44,283 nucleotides of DNA from the IMG/VR virus record IMGVR_UViG_3300007541_000040, positions 1 through 44,283 of that record; one strand, written 5' to 3'. Shown here in pieces: positions 22,636-24,507 of this stretch (its first letter is position 1; each line of letters starts with the position of its first letter). Source of the DNA: a virus. The translations under genes were made by a program, and so were the position numbers. The notes under the pieces are model-generated. The model saw only the letters and a list, made by a program, of their open reading frames with translations, ran no database searches and was not told the origin of the DNA.

Positions 22636-23229
22636 GGTCTTCATAGACGATTTTCTCATATGATTTTATACTCTCAAAAATTTCATAAGCTATATGCTTT
22701 TGGCTCGCCAGTTTGGAAAGGTAATTCTGTCCAGTTCACGGGAAAACCCATCATCTCCGCTACAAATCGGGGCGAAAGTTGGGAACTTCCTGAAGCGTTG
22801 TCCCTGTTTTCCTGTGCTTTGGGCGTAGGCAGCATTCCTGACTTCGCTAGATCGTGCAGCTGTGCGCTGAATTCCGTGCCGCCTTTGTTTTGCCTCTTGC
22901 CGTTTTCGTTCACTTGCACCGCGCCGCCCGTCACGTTCTTCGTTGTTGGAGTAGGCAGCAAACTAAACCCATTCCCGTCGGTGGGGATCTTCTTTGCATA
23001 CAACAGGAAGTAAGAGCGGTTGTATGTCGTACCCTTCAACCTCCAAGTCAGCACACATCTCTTCGAACACCAGCCCGACCGACCAATCAATAAGGCCGCA
23101 AACTTTTTCGCCCACAACGTAGGTCGGGGTAGCTTCTCAAATGAGTCTAAGCATCTCTGACCGCAGGTGGCGTACTGATATGACGTTAATTCGTCCTTCA
23201 TGCTTATTTGCTTGTAAGTTCTTGACATT
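22610..23229 (-). pseudogene. Decayed methyltransferase frame inside the second copy of the dcm locus
   Basis: In the frame one base ahead of the 181-aa gene, the DNA still reads as the C-terminal part of a cytosine methyltransferase: NVKNLQANKHEGRINV, YVVGEKVCGLIDW, GLVFEEMCADLEVEGYDIQP, FPTFAPICSGDDG, ELDRITFPNW, and after a small frameshift HIAYEIFESIKSYEK. Each matches the intact gene next door. Stops occur at 23137-23139, 22963-22965 and 22690-22692, and the segment encoding the GGFPCQP loop is missing. It cannot be an active methyltransferase. Confidence 0.8.
22683..23228 (-). CDS. Free-standing homologue of the methyltransferase-embedded protein ('LPTP ... MMGFP-x-NWTE' family)
   Basis: 181 aa. 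It starts three bases after the stop codon of the methyltransferase gene begins (TAA ATG). It matches the inner protein of the next entry along its length: MSRTYKQISMKDELTS, LWAKKFAALLIG, SKRCVLTWRLKGTTYNRSYF, two LLPTPT/LPTPKA boxes and SPRFVAEMMGFPVNWTELPF. I recall the LPTP and 'MMGFP-x-x-Wt' boxes from many phage proteins found beside or inside cytosine methyltransferase genes; no function is known to me. Relative to the inner protein it lacks a ~21-residue stretch (its residue 18 onward) that corresponds to the methyltransferase catalytic loop. The frame has stayed open for 181 codons while the methyltransferase frame on the same strand has decayed. Confidence 0.75.
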   Translation of the reverse strand: MSRTYKQISMKDELTSYQYATCGQRCLDSFEKLPRPTLWAKKFAALLIGRSGWCSKRCVLTWRLKGTTYNRSYFLLYAKKIPTDGNGFSLLPTPTTKNVTGGAVQVNENGKRQNKGGTEFSAQLHDLAKSGMLPTPKAQENRDNASGSSQLSPRFVAEMMGFPVNWTELPFQTGEPKAYSL

Positions 23230-24137
23230 TATGATTGGTAGCTTATTTTCTCGTATTCTTTTATGCTCTCAAATATTTCATAAGCTATATGAGGAACGAT
23301 GGCGTTGCCATATGCCTTCACGCTTTCTTTTCTCCACTTAGAAAAGGTGATTCCGTCCAGTTCGGTGGGAAGCCCATCATCTCCGCCGCAAATCGGGGAT
23401 TGAGTTGGGAATTTCTCGAATGATATTCCTCCCCCGTGTACTGATATACGTTCCGAAGCAGTCCTCTTCTCGCTGGGTTCTTGTCGATGCTCGTCGGGGG
23501 ATATGCTCCCTTGTAATCCGTCGCTGTTGGTGTTGGTAGTAACCCGAACTTCGCCATCTGCCGCAGGTTTACCTGTAGTGTTCCCTTGTGCTTTTCTATC
23601 GCCTTGTTCCACGACTCCTTCGATCTGGCCGTGTTCCAATCGTAGCTGTTTGGAGTGGGCAACAAACCAAACTCTGTCTCGTTTGTGCGGCGCGTTTTTG
23701 CTTGCAGCTGGAAGTATAAACGCTTGTACTTCGTAGCCTTCACGTTCCAAATCAGTGTGCACCTCTTCGAAGACCAATCCCTCGTTCCAACTAACAAGCC
23801 CGCGAACGTTTTCGCCCACAACCCAACGTGGCTGGCATTCCCGAATGACTCTAAGCATTTCGGGCCATAGATGGCGTTCGTCGTGCTTTCCTTTTCGGAG
23901 TCCTGCTGTGCTGTAGGGTTGGCATGGGAATCCTCCTGTGAGGACGTCAATTCGTCCTCTATACTTAGCTGCTTGTAGTTCTTTGACATCTGTGTGTAAT
24001 TCTGTGTTTGGAAAGTGGTGTTTTAGTACTCGTTGATTGAATGGTTCTATCTCGCATGAGAATATGTTCTCCAGATCCGCCCATTCCGCTGCCAATTCAA
24101 ATCCTCCGATTCCGCTAAATAAGCTTGCGTGTGTCAT
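23229..24137 (-). CDS. dcm: C5-cytosine DNA methyltransferase
   Basis: 302 aa. Conserved motifs: I SLFSGIGGFELAAEW (5-19), IV GGFPCQPYS with catalytic Cys72, VI VGENVRGL (Glu109), VIII HKRDRVWFVA (151-160), and X AYGNAIVPHIAYEIF (275-289). The target-recognition stretch is short and followed by KFPTQSPICGGDDGLPTEL and DGITFSKWRKESV, a C-terminus common in phage Dcm enzymes. It would transfer a methyl group from SAM to C5 of cytosine, protecting phage DNA from host restriction; no partner nuclease is next to it. The start overlaps the upstream gene as ATGA. From residue 50 to about 273 a second reading frame is open on the same strand. Confidence 0.92.
   Translation of the reverse strand: MTHASLFSGIGGFELAAEWADLENIFSCEIEPFNQRVLKHHFPNTELHTDVKELQAAKYRGRIDVLTGGFPCQPYSTAGLRKGKHDERHLWPEMLRVIRECQPRWVVGENVRGLVSWNEGLVFEEVHTDLEREGYEVQAFILPAASKNAPHKRDRVWFVAHSKQLRLEHGQIEGVVEQGDRKAQGNTTGKPAADGEVRVTTNTNSDGLQGSISPDEHRQEPSEKRTASERISVHGGGISFEKFPTQSPICGGDDGLPTELDGITFSKWRKESVKAYGNAIVPHIAYEIFESIKEYEKISYQS
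23318..23989 (-). CDS. Protein encoded in an alternative frame inside the methyltransferase gene
   Basis: 223 aa, shifted by one base relative to dcm and wholly contained in it. It starts at ATG 23989 (MSKNYKQLSIEDELTSS), which is codon 50 of the outer gene. Features: LWAKTFAGLLVG, SKRCTLIWNVKATKYKRLYF, LLPTPNSYDWN, LLPTPTATDYKGA and a C-terminal QLNPRFAAEMMGFPPNWTESPF. The free-standing 181-aa homologue next door aligns throughout and begins at the equivalent ATG, which marks this start as genuine. The sequence alone does not show how it is translated; no ribosome-binding sequence is evident. It could bind or modulate the methyltransferase; that is speculation. Confidence 0.7.
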   Translation of the reverse strand: MSKNYKQLSIEDELTSSQEDSHANPTAQQDSEKESTTNAIYGPKCLESFGNASHVGLWAKTFAGLLVGTRDWSSKRCTLIWNVKATKYKRLYFQLQAKTRRTNETEFGLLPTPNSYDWNTARSKESWNKAIEKHKGTLQVNLRQMAKFGLLPTPTATDYKGAYPPTSIDKNPARRGLLRNVYQYTGEEYHSRNSQLNPRFAAEMMGFPPNWTESPFLSGEKKA

Positions 24138-24331
24138 TGCTTTATTACTACTTCTGTGTTTATCAACTCAGCCATCTTGTTGGCTTCTTTAACTGCTTCA
24201 AACTTCCTGTTGAAGTAACCCTTTACTCCCTTCGTTTCTGTTCCGTCTTCCCTCCTCCTCACGCACACTACCCACGATCCCTTGCGTTTCTCCAAACTCA
24301 CAAACACTCTTATATTGGGTACGTCTCGCAT
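24134..24331 (-). CDS. Small basic hypothetical protein upstream of dcm
   Basis: 65 aa when started at ATG 24331 (MRDVPNIRVFVSLEKRKGSW), which overlaps the preceding gene by 22 bp; a longer form from 24367 would overlap by 58 bp and is less likely. The body VFVSLEKRKGSWVVCVRRREDGTETKGVKGYFNRKFEAVKEA looks like a small beta sheet plus helix. The stop overlaps the dcm start (ATGA). Unknown function. Confidence 0.6.
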   Translation of the reverse strand: MRDVPNIRVFVSLEKRKGSWVVCVRRREDGTETKGVKGYFNRKFEAVKEANKMAELINTEVVIKQ

Positions 24332-24507
24332 AGCTGTTCGATTAAGTGTTCTTCTGCTGAAGGCCATCCAAGGCCAATCTTTGCATCGTAGTCATTCAGG
24401 CAAGCACCTGCAAAACCATATTGGTTCGTCCGTATGTAGTGCATAGCTGTGACTATCTTCTTGTTCATGTACTCTCGTTTCTGCTCATTCGTCATCACTA
24501 TCATCAT
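24310..24507 (-). CDS. Small hypothetical protein
   Basis: 65 aa, with tandem ATG codons giving MMIVMTNEQKREYMNKK and ending SAEEHLIEQLCETYPI. The first 20 bases of coding sequence are repeated at 26749-26768. It begins immediately after the stop codon of the 30-aa membrane peptide and overlaps the next gene by 22 bp. No family recognised. Confidence 0.6.
   Translation of the reverse strand: MMIVMTNEQKREYMNKKIVTAMHYIRTNQYGFAGACLNDYDAKIGLGWPSAEEHLIEQLCETYPI
24487..24506. repeat. 20-bp direct repeat, copy 1
   Basis: attcgtcatcactatcatca occurs here and, identical and in the same orientation, at 26749-26768. On the minus strand it encodes MIVMTN at the start of a gene. The two copies are about 2.26 kb apart and enclose six or seven accessory genes. 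Confidence 0.85.

Follow-up and report, generated by a model that had tools for sequence, protein, structure and literature searches.

Here we describe a pair of overlapping genes in a tailed phage that very probably encode one C5-cytosine DNA methyltransferase (C5-MTase) as two polypeptides from the same DNA, a nested two-subunit enzyme of the M.EcoHK31I type; we put the probability of this reading at roughly 0.88. The window, which is the whole 44,283-nucleotide stretch that was analysed, is a separate virus record with terminase, portal, ribonucleotide reductase, primase/helicase and Erf present. The gene called dcm encodes the catalytic chain, alpha, and a second chain, beta, lies nested within it in the +1 frame. 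From its sequence, beta is most plausibly the specificity subunit of this enzyme, carrying motif IX and, probably, the target-recognition region, both of which are missing from the Dcm frame. Both frames are conserved and are under purifying selection where expected, the methyltransferase motifs are partitioned between them, the modules of beta are shuffled among loci, and the alpha frame has decayed in a neighbouring copy, beta2. The features of the locus are listed below, with TRD standing for target-recognition domain.

23229..24137, minus strand: alpha ("dcm"), 302 aa, with C5-MTase motifs I-VIII and X and without motif IX
23919..23927, minus strand: catalytic Pro-Cys-Gln (motif IV) of alpha; P71, C72 and Q73 are invariant in 88 sequences
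23805..23813, minus strand: ENV (motif VI) of alpha; E109, N110 and V111 are invariant in the 88 sequences
23328..23642, minus strand: alpha frame across the TRD zone, residues 166-270; predicted to be mostly disordered linker, the TRD DNA being read out of frame
23292..23309, minus strand: motif X (GNAIVP) of alpha, beyond the end of beta; G277, N278 and A279 are invariant in the 88 sequences
23318..23989, minus strand: beta, nested, +1 frame relative to dcm, 223 aa; N-terminal domain, putative TRD modules and motif IX; PHROG 1008
23540..23662, minus strand: beta module 1 (LPTPNSYDWNTARSKESWNKAIEKHKGTLQVNLRQMAKFGL), cluster M1
23405..23539, minus strand: beta module 2 (LPTPTATDYKGAYPPTSIDKNPARRGLLRNVYQYTGEEYHSRNSQ), cluster M0
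23351..23404, minus strand: motif IX in the beta frame (LNPRFAAEMMGFPPNWTE), from phmmer alignment to M.HhaI, hhalign and a family pattern count
22683..23228, minus strand: beta2, 181 aa, stand-alone duplicate of beta with a dead alpha frame; its ATG abuts the alpha stop (TAA ATG)
22833..22958, minus strand: beta2 module 1 (LPTPTTKNVTGGAVQVNENGKRQNKGGTEFSAQLHDLAKSGM), cluster M2, of a type that differs from those of beta and is present in other phages
22779..22832, minus strand: short second module of beta2 (LPTPKAQENRDNASGSSQ)
22725..22778, minus strand: motif IX of beta2 (LSPRFVAEMMGFPVNWTE)

Conservation and selection in two overlapping frames

The initial annotation had described a 223-codon frame, 23989-23318, open on the same strand with a one-base shift inside the 302-codon dcm gene, and both this frame and the boxes quoted from it were confirmed. 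Stop to stop, the beta frame runs for 234 codons. When the Dcm amino acids were held fixed and the synonymous codons shuffled in 20,000 versions, not one version reached 234 open codons (mean 69.6, maximum 215), which rules out codon bias alone as the source of the open frame. The same null gave p<=0.01 for 140 of 145 homologous genes, and across the 145 the observed median is 255 against a null mean of 102; the +1 frame of E. coli K-12 dcm is open for at most 88 codons.

Selection was estimated with an OLGenie-style count of 44 disjoint pairs. Within the overlap, dN/dS of beta is well below 1 by both contrasts, with dNN/dNS of 0.58 (0.48-0.70) and dSN/dSS of 0.21 (0.14-0.28); outside the overlap the same statistic takes the values 0.84, 1.11, 1.24 and 1.24, their intervals including 1. 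In the core zone, where dN/dS of beta is 0.50 and 0.21, alpha and beta are both constrained. In the TRD zone beta is again constrained (0.53 and 0.21) and the alpha frame evolves almost neutrally, being unconstrained by dNN/dSN (1.33, 1.24-1.43) and weakly constrained by the other contrast (0.53, 0.35-0.77). Within homologous modules the dNS/dSS of alpha is 1.06 (0.59-1.73), which is neutral, and yet the frame is open in all 409 modules examined; these module pairs were picked by beta similarity, so their beta dN/dS of 0.18 is biased and was set aside, and the alpha values alone were used. Substitution rates by codon position tell the same two zones apart. In the +1 register, positions 3 and 1 of a Dcm codon correspond to positions 2 and 3, respectively, of the inner codon; outside the overlap the position-1/position-3 rate ratio is 0.16-0.62, the normal state in which Dcm position 3 is fastest, and in the TRD zone the ratio is reversed, at 1.2-2.1. 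In the zone that the initial annotation took as the target-recognition domain of the methyltransferase, the constrained frame is the inner one, with Dcm close to neutral.

The inner frame is a real, conserved protein-coding gene under purifying selection. We give hardly any credence to its being an untranslated by-product of the codon and amino-acid constraints on Dcm. The conserved boxes that come first in beta (LWAKTF, GLLPTP) do lie opposite conserved Dcm motifs, as a by-product might, but the synonymous shuffles (0/20,000) and the inner-frame dN/dS both argue against it, as do the faster change of alpha position 1 than position 3 in the TRD zone and the neighbouring copy, which kept its beta frame after its alpha frame had died.

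Partition of the methyltransferase motifs between alpha and beta

Alpha matches PF00145 with an E-value of 4.3e-45, but over profile positions 4-169 of 324 only, and the Pfam and NCBIfam models cover only its first ~175 residues, which hold motifs I-VIII. The PF00145 match and the alignment to M.HhaI place all of these motifs in alpha, with the catalytic PCQ, ENV and RxR, and its C-terminus carries motif X (GNxVxP). In an AF2 model, built from an input alignment without some of the phage-record rows, the catalytic domain and the motif X helix of alpha are confident and residues 181-265 have a pLDDT mostly below 50; the model superposes on M.HhaI with a Z of 22-24 over ~207 of 327 residues. As modelled, alpha is without a folded small domain.

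Motif IX, which in C5-MTases follows the TRD, is found only in the beta frame, that is, in trans. In a joined sequence, phmmer aligns QLNPRFAAEMMGFPPNW of beta with TRKLHPRECARVMGYPDSY of M.HhaI, and the C-terminal consensus of the beta family, GktSQLNPRFVAEMMGFPpNWTELPF, aligns with M.HhaI motif IX (GKTRKLHPRECARVMGYPDSYKVHP) at an hhalign E-value of 1.4e-4. Of 139 beta frames, 135 show a motif-IX-like pattern, which is seen in none of the 139 alpha frames; motif X is present at the C-terminus of 133 of 139 alphas and in no beta, where nothing of the kind follows motif IX. For comparison, E. coli K-12 dcm, an ordinary single chain, has its motif IX in frame (RRLTPRECARLMGF). Chimeras that join alpha I-VIII, the TRD-IX segment of beta and alpha motif X score higher against PF00145 in six cases of six, by 4.8-10.6 bits, the controls carrying shuffled or random segments in place of the beta segment. 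Since alpha is without a small domain and beta has motif IX in the right place, beta would supply at least motif IX of that domain; and since beta holds motif IX and probably also the TRD absent from the Dcm frame, the two frames would be two halves of one methyltransferase. The initial annotation had proposed an enzyme and a second protein together, which stands in so far as beta is a conserved protein-coding gene, but motif IX marks it as half of the same methyltransferase and not as an unrelated extra protein.

Against PDB sequences the beta profile matches nothing at E<=10, so motif IX had to be brought out by direct profile-to-sequence or chimera comparison. The AF2 model of beta alone has a pLDDT of 66.7 and a pTM of 0.34 and matched no solved fold (best Z 2.9); such a weak model might be expected if the domain folds on its partner, and we do not count it against the two-subunit reading. 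With no PDB or fold match for beta alone, its link to the C5-MTases rests on motif IX, colinearity and literature precedent. A separate functional protein unrelated to methylation could instead have been overprinted on a complete Dcm, an anti-restriction protein or inhibitor for instance. It would equally be under purifying selection, and neither Pfam nor PDB contains a known relative of the beta N-terminal domain (LWAK...W.S.RC.LTWK). We nonetheless regard such a protein as unlikely, because alpha is incomplete, being without motif IX and a folded small domain, because motif IX of beta sits at the right place in the motif order, and because beta homologues either overlap alpha or survive on a decayed copy beside alpha.

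Two features of the beta start speak against the two-subunit reading: no single start codon is kept across the family, and in 120 of 128 loci the first ATG of beta has no Shine-Dalgarno sequence at a usable distance. A TTG preceded by AGGA was considered as the beta start and not adopted; it lies opposite a conserved Dcm motif. Programmed frameshifting could instead join the TRD-IX segment to alpha as a fusion polypeptide, with no separate beta, and it would suit the colinearity of the frames, the single base that separates them at each switch, and an ORF in one locus (L177) that joins alpha residues about 1-85 to the beta frame. We rejected this fusion, and judge it very unlikely, because the beta N-terminal region is constrained (core zone, 0.50 and 0.21) although it lies upstream of any useful shift point, and because beta2 is a free-standing gene whose ATG immediately follows a stop codon. 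An ATG precedes the conserved beta region in 128 of 129 loci, which also speaks for a separate start, and inclusion of motif X would need two shifts, one of +1 and another back.

Under the two-subunit reading, we infer that one transcript yields both alpha and beta, the latter from an internal ATG; with no Shine-Dalgarno sequence evident, initiation of beta may use coupling to alpha translation or an unrecognised signal. Alpha (frame 0) would be the catalytic large domain, made up of motifs I-VIII, a disordered linker and motif X, and beta (frame +1) the small domain, made up of a short N-terminal domain, one or more LPTP modules that would recognise the target, and motif IX. As a heterodimer the chains would form the active enzyme, the modules would set the sequence or sequences methylated, and methylation would probably shield the phage genome against restriction by the host. 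In an ordinary single-chain enzyme, too, the order is motif VIII, TRD, IX, X, so the arrangement likely arose by a frame split of an ancestral methyltransferase gene, in which the ancestral TRD-IX segment would have come to be read in the other frame. The new inventions would then be the beta N-terminal domain, overprinted on alpha motifs, and the alpha linker, and not the TRD. Upstream of dcm, the stop of an ORF at 24134-24367 overlaps the dcm start at 24137 (ATGA), which suggests translational coupling into alpha.

LPTP modules and the neighbouring copy

Between the N-terminal domain of beta and motif IX lie segments of ~40 residues, here called modules, each of which starts LPTP. Most betas have one to four modules and some up to seven, while 19 of 207 betas have no module that fits the strict pattern. 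The 409 modules make up 63 clusters, which occur in 134 different orders, or strings, in the 207 betas. Near-identical modules are found with alphas only ~60% identical, and among 217 locus pairs whose alpha cores share at least 88% identity, the modules are ordered differently in 188, many of these pairs being mutually non-independent. Because module strings vary between near-identical alpha cores, combinatorial specificity is suggested, with each module presumably reading a DNA target. The multispecific C5-methyltransferases of Bacillus phages, SPR and phi3T, are single chains with interchangeable recognition modules of ~40 residues between motifs VIII and IX. By analogy with these, the LPTP modules would look like specificity cassettes under frequent exchange; they share the tandem layout, the length and the interchangeability, with a putative role in DNA recognition, but here the modules belong to a nested second subunit and not to a single polypeptide, and multispecificity is likewise putative.

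The "homologue next door" of the initial annotation is the frame at 22683-23228, whose 181-aa product is 38% identical to the inner protein. It is related to that protein as claimed, with the correction that it is a copy of the whole overlapping gene that has kept only its inner frame. In the alpha frame of beta2 the catalytic PCQ loop is deleted, ENV has become EKV, three stops are present and motif X is lost; the beta frame is intact, with a homologous ATG start, and has kept motif IX. As this comparison indicates, beta2 derives from a duplicate of the same overlapping gene in which the alpha frame died and the beta frame lived, and it is best read as an un-nested second specificity subunit, which could lend alpha a second specificity. 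More broadly, shuffled LPTP cassettes lying in the second, hidden frame of the methyltransferase gene may encode specificity across many phages and prophage-bearing bacteria, at one target per cassette, with un-nested betas such as 22683-23228 extending the same alpha in trans, as a C5 counterpart of Type I HsdS swapping; we hold this proposal at even odds.

Known split enzymes, distribution and annotation

M.EaeI, like M.EcoHK31I, is a naturally split C5-methyltransferase, and Lee, Kam and Shaw are said to have reported in 1995 that the alpha gene of M.EcoHK31I encodes beta in a different frame, a nesting of the small-chain gene inside the large-chain gene like that seen here. The large subunit of M.EcoHK31I carries motifs I-VIII and X, with the predicted TRD placed there too, and the small subunit carries motif IX; in M.AquI, the small subunit holds half of the TRD with motifs IX and X (PMC3404938). 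Compared by published description, our locus agrees with M.EcoHK31I in having I-VIII and X in the large chain and IX in the small one, and differs in that the TRD zone is conserved in the beta frame only, alpha being near neutral and mostly disordered there, and in that the family has 1-7 interchangeable beta modules and here a freed second beta downstream. The TRD assignment in M.EcoHK31I is itself a prediction, so the mismatch marks a variant and does not exclude the kind. With M.AquI the locus shares catalytic and recognition parts on two chains, but motif X is here in alpha and never in beta, and the genes are nested, which sets it apart from a type with IX and X in the small chain.

About 200 phage and bacterial loci show the alpha/beta overlap. 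Querying IMG/VR with the inner protein returned 506 encoding stretches, and both frames are open in all of the first 86 loci examined. The Dcm protein, a query unbiased toward the inner frame, returned 11 loci, ten of them with an inner homologue, and in the eleventh, which is cut by a contig end, the inner frame is open too. Bacterial genomes contribute 54 loci with this overlap that appear prophage-like, mostly from Bacteroidota, and there are 90 matching phage records, including Paenibacillus, Lactobacillus, Salmonella and Escherichia phages; both frames are open in the six records that were opened. In every complete homologue examined, the +1 frame is kept open; with its dN/dS well below 1, the frame passes both of the refutation tests proposed in the initial annotation.

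In the record of Paenibacillus phage Rani the inner frame (RANI_51) is annotated inside the Dcm gene as a "hypothetical protein" with the note "g50 Internal gene"; in the other five phage records the alpha frame alone is annotated. PHROG 1008 ("DNA methyltransferase") matches the beta of the window and all six betas tested, and neither the alpha of the window nor two further alphas tested; going by these matches, it is the beta family despite its name. These two annotations thus concern the beta family, but give no subunit relation and no motif IX, and a literature search turned up no paper on genes nested in phage methyltransferases or on the "internal gene" of Paenibacillus larvae phage. PHROG 31772, also named "DNA methyltransferase", matches the C-terminal part of the beta of Salmonella phage SW3.

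In this phage group, "DNA cytosine methyltransferase" entries would describe half an enzyme, with the recognition half in a usually unannotated frame, which could explain failed activity detection or specificity prediction. The same-strand overlap is unusually long and strongly supported, and the neighbouring copy, with one frame dead and the other alive, is a natural control. The module arrays also make testable predictions about phage methylation targets and about how phages alter targets to escape restriction.

Several loci depart from the common layout. One viral contig (L161:2745-4600) has two overlapping alpha/beta genes adjacent in tandem, and in two loci (L220 and L137) a stop interrupts the alpha frame while the beta frame is open. 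The Paludibacter contig mentioned above (L177:2566-3660) has alpha residues ~1-85 and the beta frame in one ORF and the remaining alpha in a second, either a natural frame fusion or a frameshift. In the Prevotella group, L224:2830-4314 and L225:2797-4146 have very long betas, which measure 450-495 codons from stop to stop and would fit long module arrays.
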